Source: Candidatus Saccharimonadota bacterium
Lineage (GTDB): Bacteria; Patescibacteriota; Saccharimonadia; Saccharimonadales; Saccharimonadaceae
Assembly (NCBI GenBank): GCA_017459845.1
Contig: JAFUCF010000022.1
Location: 1-59,920, forward strand
DNA length: 59,920 bases
Direction: 5' to 3'
Shown: positions 35,139 to 47,397 of the stretch, one piece after another
Layout: every line of letters begins with the position of its first letter
Position numbering within the stretch: the first letter of the stretch is position 1
Made by a program: the position numbers and the translations under genes
The notes under the pieces: model-generated
The model's database searches: none
Told to the model about the DNA's origin: nothing
What the model saw: only the letters and a program-made list of their open reading frames with translations

Positions 35139-35969
35139 CTAATTACTCCTCCAAGCACGGAAAAGGTCATATCCCTTTTTTGTTGGGGTATAGCGTCTAT
35201 CTGCACCGTTGGCATACCGTGTCTCTCTTAAATAATCTTTTCTAATCAAGTCATCTATATTAGCTAGAATTTCATTTATAGAGTAATGCTTGCAGAGCGT
35301 ATCTGCATCTTTCTGCGCCTTGCCATTTGCTATTAGCGTAGTGCCATCTAAACTAGTCAGCGCATCTAGCTCGAAATTATCATTGATTTTTGACATCATT
35401 CTCATAATTTTCTCTTCTATATCGTCCAAGTCATTACCTATATGGTAAGATGGAGTATTCTTAGCCTCATTCTCTGTCGTTTTGATAAACTGCTCAATAC
35501 ATAATTCTATCTGCTTCGCTAAAGTTTTACAGAAGTTTGTCCCAGACGAGTCATTAGCAATAGAGAAACCATTTACTTTCCTTTGTGCTATGTCAAACGG
35601 TAGTTCTTCCATTTTTCCCAAATCTTGATTAAAGACGAGCAACACGCTATTCTCGGAATGTGTCGCAGTAGCAAATCCAACTTCATACATTACATTTGGA
35701 TTTGGAAAAGAGCGATTGCCACTAAGGCTTTGCCCTACTAGAGAAATGTCGGCTAAAAGCAAGTTGCATTTTTGGATTTTATTATGTAAGATACGAGTAA
35801 TATGCGGGGAGCCAGCGGAATCAGCTGTATCCTGGTCTAAGACAATCTCCACTGGTGACGATTGATACTTCGCGTTTAGTTCCTGAATTGTCTCCCGTAT
35901 GAATTTGTCTAGATAATTGCGGGTATCCTGATGACTTGACTGCCATGAGTAAAAAATTATATATTTCAT
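35139..35969 (-). CDS. TIR-like domain protein with C-terminal winged-helix region
   Basis: The 276-aa product begins MKYIIFYSWQS, a signature of bacterial TIR-like/CAP12-type domains. It continues with LLADISLVGQ and NPNVMYEVGFAT, where the Glu is placed like the catalytic Glu of NAD-cleaving TIR enzymes. The C-terminal part (about 185-276) looks like a winged helix (IDDLIRKDYLRETRYANGADRRYTPTKKGYDLF). It is probably a stand-alone immune or stress effector, though NADase activity is only inferred. TATAAT and AGGAG precede the ATG. It is divergent from the toxin-antitoxin pair. Confidence 0.78.
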   Translation of the reverse strand: MKYIIFYSWQSSHQDTRNYLDKFIRETIQELNAKYQSSPVEIVLDQDTADSAGSPHITRILHNKIQKCNLLLADISLVGQSLSGNRSFPNPNVMYEVGFATATHSENSVLLVFNQDLGKMEELPFDIAQRKVNGFSIANDSSGTNFCKTLAKQIELCIEQFIKTTENEAKNTPSYHIGNDLDDIEEKIMRMMSKINDNFELDALTSLDGTTLIANGKAQKDADTLCKHYSINEILANIDDLIRKDYLRETRYANGADRRYTPTKKGYDLFRAWRSN

Positions 35970-36045: not shown

Positions 36046-36318
36046 ATGTACGATACCGCAATTACTTTTAGAACGAATAGCAAAACAAAGCGCCAAGCAC
36101 AGAAGCTTTTTTCAAACCTAGGGATGGATACGAGCACTGCGCTTAACATCTTCTTGAAAAAATCTTTACAAACAGGCGGGATACCTTTTGAGGTGACTAC
36201 AGAGCAGCCAAATCATATAACCTTGGCTGCCATAGATGATGCTATGAATGATAATAACATGAGTGGGCCCTATGAGAGTGTAGATGATCTTATGGAGGCC
36301 CTTGATGCTGAAGATTAA
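36046..36318 (+). CDS. RelB/DinJ family antitoxin
   Basis: The 90-aa product has a ribbon-helix-helix N-terminus (ITFRTNSKTKRQAQKLFSNL then GMDTSTALNIFLKKSL) and ends PYESVDDLMEALDAED, matching DinJ antitoxins in order and length. It would bind and neutralise the toxin encoded immediately downstream and repress the operon. Confidence 0.92.
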   Translation: MYDTAITFRTNSKTKRQAQKLFSNLGMDTSTALNIFLKKSLQTGGIPFEVTTEQPNHITLAAIDDAMNDNNMSGPYESVDDLMEALDAED

Positions 36319-36583
36319 GACAACTGCTCAGTTCAATAAAGACTACAAGCTGGCAAAGCGGCGTGGATATAAGAGTATTAGATTAGAAAAAGCTATTAGG
36401 CTGTTGGCCAATGAGCACCCGTTGCCAATCCAGTATCATGACCACGTTCTACGCGACACGGCTAGGTATAGCAATGTTCGCGAGTGTCATATTCAGCCAG
36501 ATTGGCTGCTTATCTACAGAATCGAGAAAGAGTTAGAGATTCTTAGGCTTATTCGTACTGGTACACATAGCGACTTGTTCTAA
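36305..36583 (+). CDS. YafQ/RelE family mRNA interferase toxin
   Basis: The 92-aa product has the YafQ layout: KTTAQFNKDYKLAKRRG, LPIQYHDHVL, the catalytic region YSNVRECHIQPDWLLIYRI and LRLIRTGTHSDLF. YafQ toxins cleave mRNA on ribosomes. I use the ATG at 36305, giving the usual length; the antitoxin overlaps by 14 nt. Confidence 0.93.
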   Translation: MLKIKTTAQFNKDYKLAKRRGYKSIRLEKAIRLLANEHPLPIQYHDHVLRDTARYSNVRECHIQPDWLLIYRIEKELEILRLIRTGTHSDLF

Positions 36584-36836: not shown

Positions 36837-36913
36837 GTGGGATTAGCTCAGATGGTTAGAGCGTCTGATTGTGGTCCAGAAGGTCGTCGGTTCGATCCCG
36901 ATATCCCACCCCA
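36837..36913 (+). tRNA. tRNA-His (anticodon GUG)
   Basis: Acceptor stem GTGGGAT/ATCCCAC, anticodon loop TTGTGGT, T-arm CGGTTCGATCCCG, discriminator C opposite a genomically encoded G(-1) at 36836 (the histidine identity pair) and an encoded CCA. Confidence 0.94.
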
Positions 36914-37163
36914 GAATAAAAAGAATCCCCGAAGGGGATTATTTTTATTCTGTCTGTGGGTACGGCGAACCGACGAGGCGCGAAGCGCCGTCGGTTCGAT
37001 CCCGAACGCCCCTTGGGACGCGTCCACTATCCCACCCCAGTAGGAGCCGAAGCAAGCAAAAAAGCTTGCTTTTTTGGTTAGCGAGGCGACGCCCTGGGGA
37101 AGACGCGCGAAGCGCGGCTACCACACTGTAGGAGCCGAAGCAAGCAAAAAAGCTTGCTTTTTG
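36914..37163 (+). repeat. Palindromic cluster with copies of the tRNA-His 3' half
   Basis: No gene is evident. After a CCCCGAAGGGG hairpin comes an inverted T-arm copy CGAACCGACGA (36966-36976), a GGCGCGAAGCGCC hairpin and a direct copy CGTCGGTTCGATCCCGA (36989-37005). That copy is interrupted by a segment with the 12-mer CCCCTTGGGACG (37009-37020) and then resumes as TATCCCACCCCAG (37028-37040). Two direct copies of TAGGAGCCGAAGCAAGC plus its hairpin follow (37041-37075, 37129-37163). Confidence 0.8.
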
Positions 37164-37511
37164 CTATATTCCGTGGCCAATAAGGGAGCCGGAAAAGCCG
37201 TCGCCAGACGTATCCCGCCCACTTCTAGAGTATCTTGTATTATCACTAAAGCCGCTGCGCGTGCGCGGCACATATTTTCTTGCCCGCTCTGCAGTATATG
37301 CCCCACGCACTAACCGTGCATTCTCATATCCTTGGATGTATCTCCTCCGCTCGTCGGCGGCTTTTTGGTCGGAAAAGCTCCCTGGGATACTGCCGCAACC
37401 ATTACTGCCAAAATGCTCGCTCTGCGCCACGGCAAACCCAGAAGAATGCAAAACCTCATCGGTGCTTTTCTCACCGCGAATTCGGCTAAAAAGTTTACGC
37501 TGGTCTGCCAT
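37164..37511 (-). CDS. Small Arg/Gly/Ser-rich hypothetical protein
   Basis: A 115-aa frame with ATG at 37511. TACAAT on the coding strand ends about 6 nt upstream, the leaderless pattern seen at many genes here. The product begins MADQRKLFSRIRGEKSTDEV and is rich in Arg, Gly, Ser and Tyr, without membrane segments. It abuts repeat debris at its 3' end. I do not recognise it; the start-site architecture is the main support. Confidence 0.5.
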   Translation of the reverse strand: MADQRKLFSRIRGEKSTDEVLHSSGFAVAQSEHFGSNGCGSIPGSFSDQKAADERRRYIQGYENARLVRGAYTAERARKYVPRTRSGFSDNTRYSRSGRDTSGDGFSGSLIGHGI

Positions 37512-37561
37512 AAAACTATTGTAGCACATACTGGCGTACCGCCAAAAATATGTCAAAACGC

Positions 37562-37590
37562 TTGACAATCTATACACTTTGTGATAAAAT
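37562..37590 (+). promoter_or_regulatory. Consensus-like promoter of the atypical two-gene island
   Basis: TTGACA (37562-37567), 17-nt spacer and TAAAAT (37585-37590). The roughly 80-nt leader has an extra GAGGAGG before the real AGGAGG site at the gene. Confidence 0.8.
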
Positions 37591-37675
37591 GTCAGACAGT
37601 AGATCGGGCGATGAGGAGGAAACCCAATTCGCTTTTTTGTAACTATTGTTCTTTTAAAAACAGGAGGAAAAAACA

Positions 37676-38638
37676 ATGGCAAAGAAAAAAGGTTTATTCG
37701 CTAAATTGGCGGAAGATATTACAGTGTTTAACGGAAAGTCTGAAGAACCCGAGGCAAAGCCCGAGCAGACCGAGTCGAAATCTGAGCCCGAGCAGGACAC
37801 GAAGCCGGAGCAGAAACCCGAGCCCGAGTCAAAGCCGGAGCAGAAACCCGAACCCGAGGCAAAGCCCGAGCAGACCGAGTCGAAATCTGAGCCCGAGCAG
37901 GACACGAAGCCGGAGCAGAAACCCGAGCCCGAGTCAAAGCCCGACGTACCGGCGGAGCCGATCCCGGATGATCCCACGAGGATGGTCGGTTACAACCACG
38001 ACCAAAACATCGTAGTTAATGGCACCGTAGAGGTGACCAATTACAACTACGGCGGGAAAAATACGGAAAAACCGGAAAGGCCGGATCCCTTCGCGGAAGC
38101 GATAGCGGAACTTACCTTTTCCTTCGATGAAGAAAAAGGGTTCACCGATGGTAGCGCACTATATGAACTGAAGCGCGCCAGAAGTGAGGGCGAAATTCCG
38201 GGCTCAGCCAAGAAGTTTGCCGAGCTGGTATTCCTGAAGTCGCCCAAAGAAAGGGCGAAGTTTATCAGGAAATACATCAGCGAAGCCTTGGATGCCGACG
38301 CGGAGCTCTTAACCTTTATTAAGGAAACAGAGGCCAGAAAGCACAAGATTGAGCGGCGCTTCAAGCCGGACAACCCCACAGTTGGGGAACTTCTAGAAGA
38401 AGGTGCCGCCCGAACCTATATCGATGGGCAGAAGGTAAACTTACCTGCAACCTTGGCAGAGAAGGCAGAAGACGAGGATTTCGGCCGCTGGGTATTCGTA
38501 GAATACAACAGTGATACTGGCGCTATCCGTGAGCTCACGCCCGAGGAAGCCAAGTCTCATGAAGAGGCGTGGGCGAAAGCTCATAAAAAGCCGGACAAAC
38601 CCGCGGCGTCGTCTAAAAAAGGCGGCAAAGCTGGCTAA
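37676..38638 (+). CDS. Hypothetical protein with Lys/Pro/Glu repeats
   Basis: The 320-aa product begins MAKKKGLFAKLAEDITVF, then has a disordered region (about 22-100) made of two 35-residue repeats rich in Glu, Pro, Lys and Ser. A globular C-terminal domain (about 130-300) follows, with FVEYNSDTGAIRELTPEEAKSHE, and a basic tail KKGGKAG. No signal peptide. Codon use (CCC, GAG, CCG, AAG) is unlike the flanking genes and like the next gene, suggesting common foreign origin. ACAGGAGG precedes the ATG. No family was recognised. Confidence 0.75.
   Translation: MAKKKGLFAKLAEDITVFNGKSEEPEAKPEQTESKSEPEQDTKPEQKPEPESKPEQKPEPEAKPEQTESKSEPEQDTKPEQKPEPESKPDVPAEPIPDDPTRMVGYNHDQNIVVNGTVEVTNYNYGGKNTEKPERPDPFAEAIAELTFSFDEEKGFTDGSALYELKRARSEGEIPGSAKKFAELVFLKSPKERAKFIRKYISEALDADAELLTFIKETEARKHKIERRFKPDNPTVGELLEEGAARTYIDGQKVNLPATLAEKAEDEDFGRWVFVEYNSDTGAIRELTPEEAKSHEEAWAKAHKKPDKPAASSKKGGKAG
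37751..37960 (+). repeat. 105-bp tandem repeat in coding sequence
   Basis: Two near-identical 105-bp units begin at GAGGCAAAGCCC (37751 and 37856). They encode the 35-residue Glu/Pro/Lys repeats; the second unit ends slightly short. Confidence 0.85.
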
Positions 38639-38646
38639 TATACCTC

Positions 38647-38806
38647 CTGTGGGGCAGTACCGCCCAAGAGCAGCCAACGCTGCACCACAGGCGGTATAAA
38701 CCCCACGATCTACTCCCTAAGCGCCGGGGCAAGGCACTATGTACACTAGGCCCTGAGTATGGCCCGGAACTGCTCAAATACCCCGCTTAGGCGGGGTATT
38801 TCTTTT
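38647..38806 (+). ncRNA. Structured 3' RNA with alternative terminator pairing
   Basis: Co-linear stems GTGGGG/CCCCAC, TACCGCC/GGCGGTA and GCAGC/GCTGC form one long hairpin (about 38648-38706). A second domain pairs around GGCAC...GGCC. CCTAAGCG (38716-38723) is exactly complementary to CGCTTAGG (38784-38791) in the terminator, so terminator and anti-terminator forms exclude each other. I know no matching RNA family. Confidence 0.5.
38776..38806 (+). terminator. Terminator after first island gene
   Basis: AAATACCCCGC/GCGGGGTATTT stem followed by CTTTT. Confidence 0.85.
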
Positions 38807-38829
38807 ATGCTTAAAATGTTATGAAAATA

Positions 38830-38858
38830 TTGACAAATAACCTCTAGTGTGATATAAT
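38830..38858 (+). promoter_or_regulatory. Consensus promoter of second island gene
   Basis: Perfect TTGACA (38830-38835) and TATAAT (38853-38858) with a 17-nt spacer, the strongest promoter match in the window. Confidence 0.88.
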
Positions 38859-38864
38859 GGACGC

Positions 38865-39060
38865 AGTCTATATGTTTAGAGGGATTGCTTTAGGCGTATC
38901 AAGACGACCGTTAAAAAGTCGGATCATCTCAGGTACAAAACGTACCTGTTTATATATAATAGTAGCGTTAATCATTTTATTCCAGAGGGGGGTGTTACTC
39001 TCTGTTGATTTTATATAGACATATTGTTTTGACACATTGTTTAGTTTGAAAAACGGAGGT
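38865..39060 (+). promoter_or_regulatory. Long 5' leader, candidate regulatory RNA
   Basis: About 200 nt separate the predicted start site from the gene. AGGTAC/GTACCT forms a hairpin with a following U-rich tract near 38933-38960, and a G-rich GAGGGGGGTG lies near 38985. Long leaders are rare in this window. No known riboswitch was recognised. Confidence 0.4.
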
Positions 39061-39067
39061 ATAAAAT

Positions 39068-41296
39068 ATGGAACTTAAAATGATTGTGGCGGACGTAGTC
39101 TGCCTGGTGGTGTCTATTGTAACGGCACTTGTTGGTGCCGGTATCAGCCTGGCTTGCCTTACCCAGTTAAAGCGGGTAAAGGCGCAGGTAGATGCGGGAA
39201 GGAAGCTGAAGGAAGATGAGCTCGATGCCGTAGGTCTGAACGGTCCTACAAAGCTGATTGCTACGATACTTTTAGTAGCAGTAGCAGCGGGCGTCAACAA
39301 AATGCCGATAGTTAATACTGTAATTCTTGTGGCGATTTTAGCCGTAGGGATAGCAGTAATCCGTGGAGACATCGTGAATAACGAGGTCTACCTCGCGGCA
39401 GAAGTCTTTCGAGCCCTCGGCATACCCTTTGGGGCAAACCTCGTAGGGTACGTCTTAAAGTCAGTAGTAACGGGCTGGGACTGGCGGAAATTGCTTTGGC
39501 TCTTTCCGGTGGTCTTGTTCCTGATTGCCCTGACGATCGCAGAGCGTGTCAACGAGGCAGAGGAGACAGAAGATAATAGTTTTAGCACCGTTAAAACTAT
39601 TATTATCGGCCTGGTAGCAGTCTTAGCCATAGGCGGTCTCTTGACATGGGCAGCTTATGGGTTTAGCAAAAAGCATCAGGCGGCAGAAGCCGCACTGGCT
39701 GTAGAACAGGAAGCGCAGGAAGCGCAGGAGTCCGAGCAAGAGCCGGAGCCGGAAATAGTGGAAGCCGTAATGACCGACACAAACCCGGCAGAAATCATCA
39801 ACCTTGCTTTTGCCAAGCATGGCTTAAGTGAGGAAGATAAGGCGTTGGAGGCAGACATGGTGCTGCCGCAGTTGGATCCCGCGGATACGGAGAGCAAATT
39901 ATCGGATTACGCCTTAGGGCCGATATCTGAAGAAATGCTTTCCCCGATGCGCGAGTGGCTTGGCTGGGAAGTCGACTGGTCTTCTTATCCGGTTAATCCG
40001 GTAACAGAAGAAATGATGACAACCGCCAGGACACACTCGGCGAAAGAGCTTGGCTATGTAGACTATACAATGTCTTATGCCACGGCTCCCGGCTTCCCAA
40101 AGGACTGGAAAACCTACGCCAAGGCTCGCGGCCTTGATGAAAACTGCACCGAAGATGATGCGGTTATCAGATGGGTTGGCGACCTCACCGGAAATTACCC
40201 TGCCTTCATAGGCATGGTAGAATTGTTCGGCGAGGCTAAAACCCTGGGCGTCAAGAATCGAGATATTGAAGGAAATGAATTTTTCAATGAAATTCTCGAC
40301 CTGGCAAAAAAGGCGGAGGAGGAGAACAAGGGTATAACCAAATTCTTAGACTCCGAAGCAACCCCTGCTTACTCGAAGTATACCTTTGACTGGCAGACGT
40401 ACAGAGCTAAGTTTATGTATTGGCTCATGCTTAGCGATTTCCAGGGCCGGAAGGACTGGTGGACTAGCGAAAAATCATATCTCGGTCCGGCGGACAACAC
40501 CGTGTCTGAGGGTATGATACATAAGTTCGATTATACGAATGTCACATACATTCGTCCGAACTTTACCACCGCAAAAGATCGCCAGACAAACCTGCCGTCT
40601 TACCCGTTCTGCTTCAAAGACAAAAATGGCTATCGTGTCAGTGATTTCTTCGGAATAAACTGTACGAATGCGGATGCCGAGCTTTATGCAGAGCAACCCG
40701 CGGCCAAGAAGGCACAGCTAAAAGCCACGGCTGTCAAACTGACTCAGCAGCCCGCCGGGGTTGCAAAAGTAACTGCATCGACTACCGGGACAATAAAGAA
40801 GGAAGAGGGCAAAAAGGTAACTCCTCCTACTCCTCGTGACAAAGAGATTAAAAAGGTAAAGAATTCCGCGGTGAACAACCCGAGAAACAGCATCGACGGG
40901 AAGAACCCCGTCGGGCAGGGAACCGATGCCTTCCAGGCCGTAGGCACTACGCCGACAAACTGGGGCACTACGGTACCGGCAGCACAATACCAGGCGCAGG
41001 CTACAGACGGGACATCGGGCACATCAAACCCGACACTGACCGCACCTGCCGGCACCACCGTAATCCAAAACCCGGACGGTGGAACTACCGAGACGAAACG
41101 GGAGACAAAAACGGACCCCAACACCGGGGTTGAAACGTCGAATGAAACCACGACAACGACTTCCCCGACAGGGGAGACGGAGACGTCCTTTACGGAGGGT
41201 GCAGAGGCGACAACGCCTGAAATCCCCGTAAAGGTGGACAATGACAATGACGGCAATTCCTCGGAAAATACCGGGATGCCGGTCGGCGGTTTCTAA
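39068..41296 (+). CDS. Large multipass membrane protein with long outside domain
   Basis: The 742-aa product has an N-terminal membrane part (helices about 5-31, 58-76, 78-95, 135-155, 177-199) and an acidic linker. A globular domain (about 235-560) follows, with WLGWEVDWSSYPVNPVTEEM, FPKDWKTYAKARGLDENC and DLTGNYPAFIGMVELFGEA. The C-terminal tail is disordered and rich in Thr, Gly and Asn (about 590-742). CGGAGG precedes the ATG. Base and codon use match the preceding gene, not the rest of the window. Family not recognised. Confidence 0.75.
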   Translation: MELKMIVADVVCLVVSIVTALVGAGISLACLTQLKRVKAQVDAGRKLKEDELDAVGLNGPTKLIATILLVAVAAGVNKMPIVNTVILVAILAVGIAVIRGDIVNNEVYLAAEVFRALGIPFGANLVGYVLKSVVTGWDWRKLLWLFPVVLFLIALTIAERVNEAEETEDNSFSTVKTIIIGLVAVLAIGGLLTWAAYGFSKKHQAAEAALAVEQEAQEAQESEQEPEPEIVEAVMTDTNPAEIINLAFAKHGLSEEDKALEADMVLPQLDPADTESKLSDYALGPISEEMLSPMREWLGWEVDWSSYPVNPVTEEMMTTARTHSAKELGYVDYTMSYATAPGFPKDWKTYAKARGLDENCTEDDAVIRWVGDLTGNYPAFIGMVELFGEAKTLGVKNRDIEGNEFFNEILDLAKKAEEENKGITKFLDSEATPAYSKYTFDWQTYRAKFMYWLMLSDFQGRKDWWTSEKSYLGPADNTVSEGMIHKFDYTNVTYIRPNFTTAKDRQTNLPSYPFCFKDKNGYRVSDFFGINCTNADAELYAEQPAAKKAQLKATAVKLTQQPAGVAKVTASTTGTIKKEEGKKVTPPTPRDKEIKKVKNSAVNNPRNSIDGKNPVGQGTDAFQAVGTTPTNWGTTVPAAQYQAQATDGTSGTSNPTLTAPAGTTVIQNPDGGTTETKRETKTDPNTGVETSNETTTTTSPTGETETSFTEGAEATTPEIPVKVDNDNDGNSSENTGMPVGGF

Positions 41297-41464
41297 TTTT
41301 TAACGCTACTAAGTACTTTCTTTGGGGCGGCCCATTCGCCGCCCCAAATCCAAGTTTTGTGTTTGAGACGATCCGATTTTCCGACGGTTAAGATGAAAAT
41401 TAAAAATTCGGCTAGCAAAATACAGGAATATATTAATATTTTTTTAAGAAAGGAGTTTTACGCT

Positions 41465-42823
41465 ATGAGTAAAGCTATTAAAATCGGTGCTGCCTTAGCA
41501 ATCTCTGCTTTTGGTGGCTTAGCTGTTGCCTCCAACGTTTCCGCTTGGGGCGATAGCAACAACGGTCGTACACTTTACACCGTTGAACAAATCAACGAAG
41601 CGTGGGCAAAAGGTAAAAACATTATCGGTAGCAAACCAGTTTTTAACTCAATTACAAACGGTTCTATCGGTGATGAAAGATTTTTCGTCGCAGCTAGCGA
41701 GAGTGGTAACAGCTCTGCATGGCAGAACGGCGAACTTACCGTTGAGGAAGGTAAAGAGTATATTATTCGTCTTTACGTTCACAACAACAACCCAAACAAG
41801 AACATCGTAGCAAAAGATACTACCGTAATGTTTGCTCTTCCTAAAGAGTCTACTAGCTCTCAGAATATCAATGGTTTCATTAAATCTTCTAATGCTAACC
41901 CATCTGAGTACTGGGACTATGTAACCTTAAAGAGCGCTGACGGCCGTGCTTTCTACCTTGATTATCTTGAGGGTTCTGCAACTTATTACAACAACAAAGT
42001 TGCTCTTGGTGGTATCAATGTCTCTGACGATGTGATTACCACCAATGGTATCAAGATTGGTTACAACAAGCTAGATGGTAACATCCCAGGTTGTTTTGAC
42101 TATGATGGCTTTGTAGTCATCAAGGTTAAACCAGTCTTTACCGATGTCAACTACACTGTAGACAAGCGTGTCCGCCTTGCTGGCACCACTGAATGGTCTG
42201 ACTCTGTAGAGGCAAAAGTTGGCGACAAAGTAGAGTTTATGATTAAATATCAGAACACTACCGAGAATGCCGTAGAGAATGTTATGTTCCGCGATGTTCT
42301 TCCAACCAACTTAAAGGTTGTGTCTGACGTTATCGTTAAGAACACTACCCATCCAAATGGTAACAAGCAAACTGGCGACATCACCACCGGTATTAACATT
42401 GGTGGTTATGGTATCAACGCTGGTGCTTACATTTCTTACACCGCTGAAGTTATTGACAACAGTCTCATTTGTGGTACTAACACTTTGAGGAACTGGGGCC
42501 AAATCGGCGTTGGCAAGATCACTCTTCAGGATTCTGCCGATGTGGTTATCAAGAAGACTTGTACTGAGCCAAAGAAAGATTGTACCACTAACCCAGAAAT
42601 GCCTGAATGTAAGAAACCAGAGCCAGAGAAGAACTGTACAACCAATCCAGAAATGGCTGAATGCCAGAAGAAAGATGAGCCAAAGAAGGAAGAGGGGAAT
42701 AATAATACTCCAAGCGAGATGCCTTCTACCGGCGCTACCGAGATTGTTCTTGGTACTTTAGGTATTGGTTCCGTCGTAACCGCTGCTGGTTACTACATTG
42801 CTAGCCGCAAAGCATTGCGCTAA
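41465..42823 (+). CDS. Surface protein with DUF11-like domain and MPSTG sorting signal
   Basis: The 452-aa product has a signal peptide (to about residue 26, NVSAWG), a large N-terminal domain and a DUF11-like module (VDKRVRLAGTTEWSDSVEAK, VGDKVEFMIKYQNTTENAVE, VMFRDVLPTNLKVV) often linked to isopeptide-stabilised adhesins. Then come two similar CTTNPEMxEC linkers and a C-terminal MPSTG motif, membrane helix and basic end. MPSTG is LPxTG-like, so sortase anchoring is likely. AAAGGAG precedes the ATG. Codon use is strongly biased, suggesting high expression. Confidence 0.82.
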   Translation: MSKAIKIGAALAISAFGGLAVASNVSAWGDSNNGRTLYTVEQINEAWAKGKNIIGSKPVFNSITNGSIGDERFFVAASESGNSSAWQNGELTVEEGKEYIIRLYVHNNNPNKNIVAKDTTVMFALPKESTSSQNINGFIKSSNANPSEYWDYVTLKSADGRAFYLDYLEGSATYYNNKVALGGINVSDDVITTNGIKIGYNKLDGNIPGCFDYDGFVVIKVKPVFTDVNYTVDKRVRLAGTTEWSDSVEAKVGDKVEFMIKYQNTTENAVENVMFRDVLPTNLKVVSDVIVKNTTHPNGNKQTGDITTGINIGGYGINAGAYISYTAEVIDNSLICGTNTLRNWGQIGVGKITLQDSADVVIKKTCTEPKKDCTTNPEMPECKKPEPEKNCTTNPEMAECQKKDEPKKEEGNNNTPSEMPSTGATEIVLGTLGIGSVVTAAGYYIASRKALR

Positions 42824-42976: not shown

Positions 42977-44038
42977 ATGGACGAAAACCAGATGAATTCT
43001 TTTGAAGGGAATTCTAACGCCAGCGCAGGCGCTAATTCTGGTGTTTCTGATAATACTAGCTCTAATCCTAGCGCCATCCCTGTCAACCCATATGCGCCAT
43101 CTGGCGCACCATACGCCCCAGGTAGCAACACTCCCGCCCCGTCCTACGCCGCGCCTTCCCAGTCTACGCCATATACGGCCCGCACGTGGAATAGTCCAGC
43201 TATTTCGCCTGCTGTTCCTAACACCGCCGGGAACGATACATTCATGTCTATTGCTCCAGCCCCAAAGGAAACTAAGTTTTTTACTAAAAAATTCGTCATC
43301 TTCCTCATCATTGGCCTCATCCTCATCGCCGCCGCCATAGTAACCGGGGTAGTGATAAAGAATAACCGCAGCAACACGCCCGCCCAAAATACCAGTAATG
43401 CGTCTTTTAATTCGTATATGAACTATATTCTACTAGGCGTACAGTCGGATTCTGCATATACTGCTGGGTATAGCCCTAGCGATATCTATTATATAGAAAC
43501 GGTTTTCAACAGCAATAATAATTATGATGTTGCAGTGGCAAAAGCCTTCGCCTCGAAGTGGGATGTTTTTTATAATCTACTAGACAACAATCAAAAGGGT
43601 AATTCAGCAGTAAGCGAGTATAATTCCTTAATCGCTCTCTTTAAATCTTACACAGAGGCTCCGACGCTTACGGATGATGCTTTGCTTACGGCTTACTCAA
43701 ACACTCAAGGTAACGTTTCTTACCTTACGGACTACTATTTACCGTATACAAACAGTAGCTCCTCGTATGCAAAGAGCTATGGCGAGCTTTTAGTGCAATA
43801 TGGCACGGCGGTCTTTAATAAGTATGCCATTTATTCCCGCGGTGGCTGTATTATAGAAGGCCAGATTAACCAAGAATGTGTAGACATTTTAGAATTAAGC
43901 GATGATGACAGAGTAAAAATTGCCGAGCCCAATAAACTATTGCTAAGCGCAAGGAACGCTTTTGCAGAAGATACCGGCCTGCTCATTACTAAGGTATGGG
44001 ACGTAAATACTGTAATTAACGGAGGTGCGCAATCATGA
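42977..44038 (+). CDS. Membrane-anchored extracytoplasmic protein upstream of the VirB6-like gene
   Basis: The 353-aa product has a disordered Pro/Ala/Ser/Asn-rich N-terminus (about 1-95), one membrane helix (about 108-130) and an outside helical domain of about 220 residues. TATAAT ends 6 nt before the ATG, so it is probably leaderless. It overlaps the next gene by ATGA, indicating joint expression and possibly a joint envelope complex. It shares plan and the MDEN start with the 11836-13008 product. Family unknown. Confidence 0.78.
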   Translation: MDENQMNSFEGNSNASAGANSGVSDNTSSNPSAIPVNPYAPSGAPYAPGSNTPAPSYAAPSQSTPYTARTWNSPAISPAVPNTAGNDTFMSIAPAPKETKFFTKKFVIFLIIGLILIAAAIVTGVVIKNNRSNTPAQNTSNASFNSYMNYILLGVQSDSAYTAGYSPSDIYYIETVFNSNNNYDVAVAKAFASKWDVFYNLLDNNQKGNSAVSEYNSLIALFKSYTEAPTLTDDALLTAYSNTQGNVSYLTDYYLPYTNSSSSYAKSYGELLVQYGTAVFNKYAIYSRGGCIIEGQINQECVDILELSDDDRVKIAEPNKLLLSARNAFAEDTGLLITKVWDVNTVINGGAQS

Positions 44039-47000
44039 AACGTCTCCGCATAATACTATTACCAGCTATAGCAATAATCGCAAGTGGCGTTTTTGCTTTT
44101 ACAATGGCAAAGCCAGCCTCTGCCGCTCCAGACGAAAGTGTTATGCGCAAAGTTTATGCTGCCCTGATTTATAGATGTTATAGTGGTGGGTACGTTAACA
44201 GTGTTATTAAGAATGAAAATCAGGATTTATGGCATGAGAATGCCGACAGTAACCAGAACTTGTTTAAAGAAAACGGTATTAATTCTAAAAGCGCTTTACT
44301 GCCGAATGGCTGGACTACTGCTACTGGTGATAGCGTAAGCTGCGCCGAGCTATTTGTTGGCACAAATGGTTTTAATGGTCTTAATGCCACTTATGGTATG
44401 CCAGCAAACACCACGTCGGCTCTAGAAAAATTAGGTTATGAAGCCACTATGAAGGGGCTGTCTGGCGCGTCTAAAAGCTGTATTAGACCAACGTTTACAG
44501 TGGGTACCATCACAGAAGAAAATACCAACGGCTGGCTCCCAGGCGGGTGGGTGCAAAGAGGCGGCCTAACAAATACTGCTACATCTAGTGGCCCAGAAGT
44601 GTGCTTCGACGTAGACTCAAATGGTGTAATTGTCGCCAAAGGTTCTCAGGGCTCAGCTGGCAGCACTCAAAATGGTGATATTAATTACAGTACGTCATTT
44701 GAGGGGAATAATCTTACCATTACGATTAGCACTGGGGCCGCGGTAGAATATACCAGTGTGAGCTACACTCCCGGCCAAACAAAGCTGTCCGAGATAGAAT
44801 CAGCAATTAGAAATGCCTTTTCTGGCACTATTTCTGTTACGCCAAACCAGAGGATAGGAGATGATGTAACGACTGGTAACGCAAGAAGAATTAGGCAAGT
44901 AATGCAGCTTAGCGACGTCTCCACTAGCTCTAGTGGCCAATCTGCCGATACGGGTATGTACCAATTCTGTAACGGCGATGCTACGTGTGCCGCTAATAAA
45001 GCGGGCGCCAATATTGTTGGCAGCTCAAACCGCGCATTGTCGGAGGCAGAAGTTGCTAATCTTTACATGGACTACATTAACAGATACACTACGTATACCT
45101 GCAACGAAAACGATGCCGGCACAAAAGTTCGCCTTAAAGTAAACGGCGCCTGGAAAAACTGCGTGATTTCATATGCTAGCCAAAATACATTTAATGGCGT
45201 AGATTCCAACCGTGTATTTGGCGTAACAGTTACCCTGGATGACATTATTAGATTTCTTGGCACAGAGGAGGTAGAAAATAATAACGATATAGGGGATGGA
45301 TTAGAAAATGAAGGCAATGTTGGCGTTACTACGCCGCCGCCATCTACCGATGAGACTGGCGGCGATACTACCTCTGCCGCAGATACTTGCTATGGCTCCG
45401 CCGGCACAATAGGGCTCGGCTGGATAATGTGCCCGATCTTATCTATCACTTCTAATACACTCAACTGGGTTTACGAAAACATTGTCACCGACTATCTCCA
45501 AGTAGAGACTAGCCTTACATCTAGGGACCAAGTATACAAGACCTGGCAAACTTTTCAGAATTTTGCTAATATCATCATGGTTATATTCTTGCTCGTAGTA
45601 ATATTCTCTCAATTAACCGGGCTTGGTATAGACAATTATGGCATCAAGAAAATCTTGCCACGGCTTATCATTTGTGCAGTCCTTATTAACCTCAGCTTTT
45701 TCATCGTCCAGTTTTTAGTAGACGTTTCGAACATCGTCGGAAATAGTATAGCGGGCCTATTCGAGGTAAATAGAATTAGTATTGAGGCAAGCGATTATAG
45801 CGGGCTAGATTTGCCATCTAATATCCTTGGCATAGGCATAGTAACCGCCTTCGGTGCCGGCGTAGCAGCAGTGGTGGCGAATCCGGCTATCCTGCTGTCA
45901 TTCCTTCTCGTTATACTATCTGGCCTGGTTTCAGTATTGGTAATGTGGCTAATTCTGGTAGCAAGAAAAGCCGGGGTAGTCATAGCAATCGTCATTGCGC
46001 CTATAGCGTTTGCATTGTACCTGTTACCGAACACTAGCAAGGCCACCAAGACCTGGATTAGTTTTGTAAAATCGCTACTATTGCTTTACCCGCTTGCCTC
46101 ATTGCTTATCGGCGCTAGCTTCTTCGCTAGCAACCTCGTAGCTAGCCTTGGCGACAACTTTGCCTTACCAGCCATGATGCTCCGCGTGGTTCCGTTCCTA
46201 GCCCTACCGTCCTTGTTCAGGAAGTCTATAGACGCGGTTGGCAATCTTGGTACCAAAATCCAAGGCTTTGGCCGCACACTCGGCCGTGGGGCAACCGGCG
46301 CTATCCGCGACTCCGATACGTATAAGACTCTTCAGAAAGCTGGTCTAGAAAGAGGAAATCGTATCCGTGCTGGCCTTGATACGGAAGGCAATCTTACAGG
46401 TAGAGGCGAAAGGATGGCACGCCGTAATAATAGAGGGCTCGGGAGAATACTAGGTATGAACAAATTACAGGCTAGCAGAATTGCTCGTGCCAATAAGGCT
46501 AGGGAAGAAGGAATTAGTAGTACTGCTGAACTAGGCGAGGTTATTGAACGGCGAAGGCTAGCAAGAGACCAAAGTCTTAACCGTCAAGACTACCTAGAAA
46601 GAGAATTAACACGCGCATTAGAAGCAGGTAATACAAGTGACTACTATGCTGCAGTAGATCAAGCAACAAAAAGCGGCATGAAATCATCTGATATTGCTAA
46701 AGCTACGCGAAAGGTATTTGAAAACGCGAGTCATGGCGGCAATCTGGCCGACGATGGGCAGTGGGGTAATTTCTTACAAGAATTCGCCAATCGCTATGGT
46801 GGTTCATTCCTGAAAAAGGATGCTGAGCAAAAATCTTGGGCTGCTACGCGCGCTGGTAAAGACATTGATCCAGGAAAACACCCAAATGCTGCTGGGGGAT
46901 TGGCCGGTTTTGCGAGCCGCGGCGGCATGGAAGTTGCCGATCTTAAGGATAACGAAGTCGTTGATCTCAGTGCAGACCGCCTACATGAACTACTAGCTGC

Positions 47001-47397
47001 TGGTATAATTGATGCTGCGCAAGCCCAACGTGTTTGGTCATCTGGCGCCAATATGGATAGCATTAACAAGCTAATGCTTGGCGCAATGGGTACGAGAGGG
47101 ACATTAATCAGTAAAGCTGATGCTCAGCAAATGACGAGCGGTACCTATGCTGGTGGGAAGCACGGTCTTGATAGGCAGGCTGTTCAAGCTCTTACCGAGG
47201 CTACCCCGCAAGATACTGTCATCCGTGATGTCAGGTGGAAAGATGCTGAAGGTAGGGAGAGGCAAACTAACCCATTAGAAGTTTCCATCCGCGAGAATCA
47301 AACAAACCCTCCATCTACCCCTACTCCGCAAAACCCGCCTACTCCACAAAATCCGCCTGCTCCACAAAACCCGCCTACCCCACCTAATAATCCGTAG
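44035..47397 (+). CDS. VirB6/TrbL-like polytopic membrane protein
   Basis: The 1120-aa product has a signal peptide (to about residue 31), a large extracytoplasmic N-terminal domain (about 32-450), a cluster of six or so membrane helices (about 460-740), and a long cytoplasmic C-terminal region rich in Arg, Ala and Gln. It ends in Pro/Gln/Asn repeats (PTPQNPPAPQNPP). The helix cluster (FANIIMVIFLLVVIFSQLTG; LVARKAGVVIAIVIAPIAFA) matches VirB6/TrbL channel proteins of type IV secretion systems. No VirB4 or VirD4 ATPase is nearby. A secretion or DNA-uptake role is inferred. Confidence 0.75.
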   Translation: MKRLRIILLPAIAIIASGVFAFTMAKPASAAPDESVMRKVYAALIYRCYSGGYVNSVIKNENQDLWHENADSNQNLFKENGINSKSALLPNGWTTATGDSVSCAELFVGTNGFNGLNATYGMPANTTSALEKLGYEATMKGLSGASKSCIRPTFTVGTITEENTNGWLPGGWVQRGGLTNTATSSGPEVCFDVDSNGVIVAKGSQGSAGSTQNGDINYSTSFEGNNLTITISTGAAVEYTSVSYTPGQTKLSEIESAIRNAFSGTISVTPNQRIGDDVTTGNARRIRQVMQLSDVSTSSSGQSADTGMYQFCNGDATCAANKAGANIVGSSNRALSEAEVANLYMDYINRYTTYTCNENDAGTKVRLKVNGAWKNCVISYASQNTFNGVDSNRVFGVTVTLDDIIRFLGTEEVENNNDIGDGLENEGNVGVTTPPPSTDETGGDTTSAADTCYGSAGTIGLGWIMCPILSITSNTLNWVYENIVTDYLQVETSLTSRDQVYKTWQTFQNFANIIMVIFLLVVIFSQLTGLGIDNYGIKKILPRLIICAVLINLSFFIVQFLVDVSNIVGNSIAGLFEVNRISIEASDYSGLDLPSNILGIGIVTAFGAGVAAVVANPAILLSFLLVILSGLVSVLVMWLILVARKAGVVIAIVIAPIAFALYLLPNTSKATKTWISFVKSLLLLYPLASLLIGASFFASNLVASLGDNFALPAMMLRVVPFLALPSLFRKSIDAVGNLGTKIQGFGRTLGRGATGAIRDSDTYKTLQKAGLERGNRIRAGLDTEGNLTGRGERMARRNNRGLGRILGMNKLQASRIARANKAREEGISSTAELGEVIERRRLARDQSLNRQDYLERELTRALEAGNTSDYYAAVDQATKSGMKSSDIAKATRKVFENASHGGNLADDGQWGNFLQEFANRYGGSFLKKDAEQKSWAATRAGKDIDPGKHPNAAGGLAGFASRGGMEVADLKDNEVVDLSADRLHELLAAGIIDAAQAQRVWSSGANMDSINKLMLGAMGTRGTLISKADAQQMTSGTYAGGKHGLDRQAVQALTEATPQDTVIRDVRWKDAEGRERQTNPLEVSIRENQTNPPSTPTPQNPPTPQNPPAPQNPPTPPNNP

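Follow-up and report, generated by a model that had tools for sequence, protein, structure and literature searches.

Complementary leaders and trailers around two fast-evolving genes of Saccharibacteria suggest an rRNA-like organisation of their messages

We analysed a stretch of 59,920 nucleotides (nt) from Candidatus Saccharimonadota bacterium (assembly GCA_017459845.1, contig JAFUCF010000022.1, positions 1 to 59,920), hereafter the window; all positions are numbered from its first letter, and features lie on the forward (+) strand unless stated otherwise. Two adjacent genes in this window, gene 1 (37676–38638) and gene 2 (39068–41296), stand upstream of a gene for a DUF11 surface protein (41462–42823). 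Our reading, based on sequence comparison and held at a probability of about 55%, is that these genes give two messages, both started at near-consensus promoters and both with 5’ and 3’ untranslated regions (UTRs) built to pair across the gene, and that closure and processing of these messages would resemble those of precursor ribosomal RNA (pre-rRNA).

The gene 2 message is predicted to arise from a consensus promoter (TTGACA-17-TATAAT; 38830–38858), with a leader of ~203 nt from the predicted start site. Leaders from 78 loci share one plan, consisting of a hairpin that begins with AGTC (P1), a core around TTAACAACCGAATCATCTCAG and a second hairpin (P2). In the window, P1 spans 38865–38905, the core spans 38906–38941 and carries the boxA-like CGTTAAAAA at 38909–38917, and P2 (CAGGTAC-AAAAC-GTACCTG) spans 38930–38948, its 5’ arm overlapping the pairing core; the core form in the window’s clade has TTAAAAA in place of TTAACAACCGAATCATCTCAG. 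RNAalifold found no consensus structure for the leader because hairpin lengths vary, and we counted hairpins across the leaders directly: P2 was found in 75/76 leaders, with covarying pairs. A model trained on the sequences of 37 leaders alone (R1) matched 65/66 genomes of the genus and, across 148 further genera of the order, 0/279 genomes. Searches of the window and three relatives against Rfam gave nothing above its gathering threshold for the leader, and weak matches such as sX11 and RsmY, with scores far under that threshold, were rejected. Comparison across loci shows the predicted gene 2 leader to be a conserved RNA with the order P1, boxA-like core, P2, a new motif missing from Rfam. 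In two loci (L098 and L106) two leader copies lie ~0.9–1.9 kb apart upstream of one DUF11 gene, and a second leader-like copy was seen by eye in L058.

Between gene 2 and the DUF11 gene lies the trailer core, an element that reads as the reverse complement of the leader core; in the window the two match over as many as 36 nt, the trailer core being at 41354–41389 with an R1 match on the minus strand at 41355–41380. Nested within this core helix, a second leader arm, TAGTAGCGTTA (38960–38970), has its partner in the trailer arm TAACGCTACTA (41301–41311), and a GC hairpin predicted from sequence and fold follows gene 2 at 41321–41348. The joined UTRs of gene 2 in the window fold 33 kcal/mol better than the same UTRs apart. 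In many genomes of the genus the trailer appears as an opposite-strand R1 match ~1.5–2.7 kb downstream of the leader. At two columns of the core (38906–38941 with 41354–41389), many species have A·C in place of a standard pair.

Each leader or trailer element was found through its own motif, with no recourse to its partner in that locus. The resulting 18-pair helix had 95.1% standard pairs, compared with 89.2% after shuffling (0/500), and nine of its pairs had changes on both sides; on four of the five measures it lay beyond every one of the 500 shuffles, and controls slid along the sequence reached at most 46%. Stems between cognate leaders and trailers differed from non-cognate ones (p = 4 × 10−11; n = 78). 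By simple parsimony on the DUF11 tree, the only pairing test that takes relatedness into account, one G-C/A-U pair changed ~12 times on each side and another helix pair changed 8 and 6 times, both being paired in 70/70 loci. Comparison across loci shows the leader core and the predicted gap element to be complementary and co-evolving, and the long covarying helix expected of a pre-rRNA-type leader and trailer is present here.

Conserved leaders with hairpins are also what a classical cis-regulator would have, that is, a riboswitch, protein-binding site or thermosensor acting on the Shine-Dalgarno (SD) sequence of gene 2; the trailer would then be a partner that is separate or works in trans. 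Many leaders have a GGAGG/CCTCC hairpin ahead of the SD. This explanation seems unlikely to us, since the leader is associated with no metabolic gene and resembles nothing in Rfam, and since its most conserved segment is the very part complementary to the trailer.

Gene 1 appears to be organised similarly. Its promoter (TTGACA-17-TAAAAT; 37562–37590) has near-consensus counterparts at the same place in other loci, and a leader of ~79 nt (37597–37675) follows a predicted start site at about 37597. The 5’-terminal element AGTAGATCG (37598–37606) pairs with CGATCTACT (38706–38714), a complement of the mRNA 5’ end that lies in the 3’UTR. In the window, this pairing encloses a second one, between the SD ACAGGAGG (37660–37667) and an anti-SD, CCTCCTGT (38643–38650), directly past the stop codon of gene 1; ACAGGAGG and CCTCCTGT form the complementarity between a 3’UTR anti-SD and the SD of the same message that typifies icaR. 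Cognate stems again stood apart from non-cognate ones (p = 9 × 10−8; n = 53). The first 24 nt of the mRNA favour their own 3’UTR over those of other loci (p = 5 × 10−6 in the first 60 nt past the stop, p = 0.012 in the remainder) and the SD region does so more weakly (p = 0.007 over 52 loci), while the middle of the leader showed no such preference in this cognate/non-cognate test. The pairing sequences vary between species, and joining the window UTRs of gene 1 improves their predicted fold by 13 kcal/mol. Comparison shows the predicted 5’ end of the gene 1 mRNA to be complementary to its own 3’UTR, as is the SD in the window’s clade. Further down, this 3’UTR folds strongly before an intrinsic terminator, predicted from sequence and fold as a GC-rich hairpin with a T-run (38778–38805). 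An earlier note on this DNA had recognised the promoters and long leaders of both genes, and the folded RNA and terminator between them; these signals proved real and conserved, and the complementarity of leader and trailer had been missed.

The two cores could instead be inverted repeats at the level of DNA, flanking gene 2 as protein-binding or recombination sites (for a regulator, an invertase or a transposon end) and forming no RNA helix. Such sites would fit a hypervariable gene between conserved flanks, a 16-nt core without strand bias to G-U, and extra copies that flank other genes. However, the 5’ copy sits in the predicted transcribed leader, between two hairpins; the extension of the helix on the P2 side is strongly biased on the + strand (87 G-U to 11 A-C), as fits RNA of that strand; a second nested arm is present in the window; gene 2 had a single orientation in the loci read; and gene 1 pairs through unrelated sequences anchored at its predicted transcript start. 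We regard the DNA explanation as improbable, and action of the helix as RNA is favoured over it, although not proven.

The extra copies are informative on the relation of trailer to leader. In one locus (L245), a leader and a trailer enclose a gene for a 272-amino-acid (aa) secreted protein, and therefore the trailer appears to accompany the leader. Other extra leaders stand before other membrane or surface genes. In L246–L248 and L251, leader RNA also occurs after a nucleoside diphosphate kinase-like gene, and in L251 it stands before a gene for a 537-aa membrane-anchored protein. The L245 arrangement bears on a further alternative, in which the downstream element is an inverse copy of the core through which a small RNA from the leader would lower or raise translation of DUF11 in trans. 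The trailer core does lie within the DUF11 5’UTR, and some leaders have T-rich sequence after P2. Yet in most loci there is no T-run behind P2, and beyond the L245 trailer the stretch read contains no same-strand open reading frame (ORF) of at least 70 aa, making this alternative the least probable of the three.

BoxA-like motifs are enriched in the leaders of both genes. The genus rRNA genes, missed by an Rfam family search, were located by DNA search; the 23S leader in the window carries CATTTAACAATTTG, and three further 23S leaders of the genus have TTAACAA in common with it, four in all. TTAACA occurred in 16/52 gene 1 leaders (2.5 expected), 51/78 gene 2 leaders (3.5 expected) and 63/78 gaps between gene 2 and DUF11 (9.8 expected), and was not enriched in gene 1 trailers (4/52; 3.9 expected). 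A boxA-like TTAAAAATTCGGCTAG lies in the DUF11 leader (41400–41415), and TTAACAATTYGGNTAG, with one mismatch allowed, occurred as a single copy per genome in 7/7 genomes, its coordinates placing it in the DUF11 leader. Genes for both RNase III (rnc) and NusB (nusB) are encoded. The 23S gene itself is cut by the end of the window, and in assembly G000 no 16S rRNA was found by Rfam family.

Several observations weigh against a pre-rRNA-like reading. The 16-nt core holds 39 A·C to 9 G·U, with A·C frequent in two columns, which pairing of + strand RNA alone does not predict, and the leader’s own P2 hairpin may account for part of the G-U excess in the extension. The cognate/non-cognate tests for both genes are uncorrected for relatedness of the loci, the gene 1 pairing is short and missing in part of the loci, and the boxA-like site of the window is TTAAAA rather than TTAACA.

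We infer the pairing from comparative evidence; processing by RNase III, control through NusB and boxA, and the outcome are put forward as hypotheses. In the model we propose, nascent RNA would pair in cis, like pre-rRNA. The boxA-like core would recruit NusB/S10 and hold the leader close to RNA polymerase until the trailer emerged and captured the core, whereby the transcript would be closed as a loop. A cut in the core helix by RNase III might then part the mRNA of gene 2 from the DUF11 transcript downstream, and in gene 1 closure would also mask the SD, such that translation would be capped.

A boxA leader closed by its trailer is known from ribosomal RNA. In E. coli pre-16S rRNA, boxA is followed by a boxC strand that pairs with the trailer, and the helix, for which more than 17 bp are critical, is cut by RNase III (PMC10250234). 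The gene 2 leader resembles this boxB-boxA-boxC arrangement in its hairpin, its boxA-type sequence and the conserved trailer-pairing strand that comes next, as well as in a helix of more than 17 bp, in which an RNase III site would be expected (PMC10250234). It differs in that protein-coding genes are enclosed, a 742-aa ORF occupying the place of an rRNA, in that the pairing core begins at or directly after the boxA-like site and not 18–19 nt later, and in that binding of NusB is here only predicted. Gene 1 resembles icaR of Staphylococcus aureus, in which an anti-SD in the 3’UTR binds the SD of its own message and RNase III cuts the duplex (PMC3868564). Unlike icaR, however, the extreme 5’ end pairs too, the pairing sequence differs between species, and two adjacent genes are involved, with the gene 2 helix leaving the SD uncovered. 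A boxA-like sequence in the 5’UTR of protein genes also has precedent in suhB and other mRNAs in which boxA functions, for which the part of the source available to us notes no paired trailer (PMC5725501); their consensus, GYTCTTTAANA, is matched here only partly.

The proteins encoded by the two genes evolve fast. Both genes had been described earlier as long and unrecognised, and the ORFs are real: neither product has a match above the curated cut-offs of Pfam or NCBIfam, and neither has any match in PHROGs. Gene 1, preceded by a good SD, encodes a soluble, fast-evolving, low-complexity protein of 320 aa rich in Glu, Pro and Lys. Its 35-residue repeats, also noted earlier, are encoded by 95-nt copies at 37745 and 37850 (spacing 105 nt) that are 99% identical. 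Matches to gene 1 in two genomes (G054 and G066) were dismissed as repeat or low-complexity similarity. Gene 2, also with a good SD, encodes a 742-aa membrane protein with a multi-transmembrane N-terminus, an ectodomain and a low-complexity tail. The outside domain, earlier described as unknown, matches no known fold: the ectodomain of a relative (L190) was modelled as helices and a beta sheet (predicted local distance difference test score, pLDDT, 94.7) and had no significant Foldseek match (best E 0.03 in PDB and 0.0085 among viral structures), and a relative modelled as a whole protein had no match in PDB. The ectodomain encoded in the window is collinear with another subtype within the family (hhalign E 0.002, at a probability of only 5% and from shallow profiles), so that it is mainly synteny and architecture that tie it to its relatives. 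The gene 2 protein is a fast-evolving component of the cell envelope that probably faces the host bacterium.

In almost every sampled genome of the genus the pair occupies one and the same position, ahead of the DUF11 gene and a VirB6-like gene. Relatives of DUF11 were found in 114/118 of its genomes, and the order gene 1, gene 2, DUF11 is kept in all 19 loci inspected closely, namely those long enough to take in gene 1, bearing out the earlier suggestion that the two genes belong together. In these loci, the gene 1 slot holds a hypervariable soluble protein, charged or of low complexity, and the gene 2 slot a multi-transmembrane protein with an ectodomain and a Pro-rich tail, encoded by one gene or a split pair. 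Relatives at BLAST level were found in only 2/150 genomes, an apparent rarity that we attribute to the fast evolution of both proteins.

Transfer into the genome, which the earlier note had raised as a possibility, is contradicted by these data. Gene 1 does have the most deviant codon use among the 45 window ORFs of at least 150 aa, with 0.62 G+C at third codon positions against a median of 0.46, whereas gene 2 departs from its surroundings by its raised G+C content (0.52) and not by codon use, lying outside the 14 most deviant of these ORFs. However, G+C content exceeds that of DUF11 in 78/78 loci for gene 2 and in 51/53 for gene 1, and the composition is therefore a long-standing trait of the locus. 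Synteny across the genus, together with this shared composition, rules out a recent transfer or island: presence is not patchy, and composition is not foreign relative to relatives. Cargo of a mobile element was likewise rejected, gene 2 relatives being absent from phage records and from one viral-contig scan.

Downstream of DUF11, a gene for a 354-aa membrane protein is followed by one for a VirB6/TrbL-like membrane protein (44035–47397; weak match, E 0.01). Type IV secretion loci of Patescibacteria likewise have VirB6-like genes (PMC12102498), but neither gene 1 nor gene 2 matches any of the protein families tested, and we claim no membership. Upstream of gene 1, a divergent ORF on the minus strand (37164–37682) contains EVLHSSGFAVAQ, and small proteins like it, with an HSSA/HSSG motif, are again found next to gene 1 in L040, L045 and L058. 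Farther upstream, genes for a RelB-family antitoxin and a YafQ-family toxin (36046–36583) adjoin tRNA-Gly and tRNA-His, and a minus-strand gene (35139–35969) encodes a protein of 276 aa that weakly resembles TIR-like (CAP12/Pycsar) proteins and nucleoside deoxyribosyltransferases, in both cases below threshold. Two repeats occupy 36885–37162, one of 17 nt that copies the 3’ part of tRNA-His (36885 and 36989) and a perfect one of 35 nt (37040 and 37128); they are possibly an old integration scar.

The genomes that carry the leader are metagenome-assembled genomes of Saccharibacteria, by their record titles mostly from ruminant gut, a listing that does not include the window’s own record; this large genus comprises tiny gut Saccharibacteria that are probably epibiotic. 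Tentatively, and with clearly less confidence than in the reading of this locus, the whole genus may make the mRNAs of key surface proteins in an rRNA-like manner, by NusB/boxA-loaded transcription, leader-trailer closure and release by RNase III; the literature we found contains no description of such mRNA biogenesis. The leader makes a new RNA family, one that Rfam lacks, and clear, testable pairs of sites come with it; the gene 2 protein, with its ectodomain of no recognised fold, is a candidate contact point between the epibionts and their host bacteria. If our reading is true, protein messages can use the folding and processing logic of rRNA, here around fast-evolving surface genes of Saccharibacteria.

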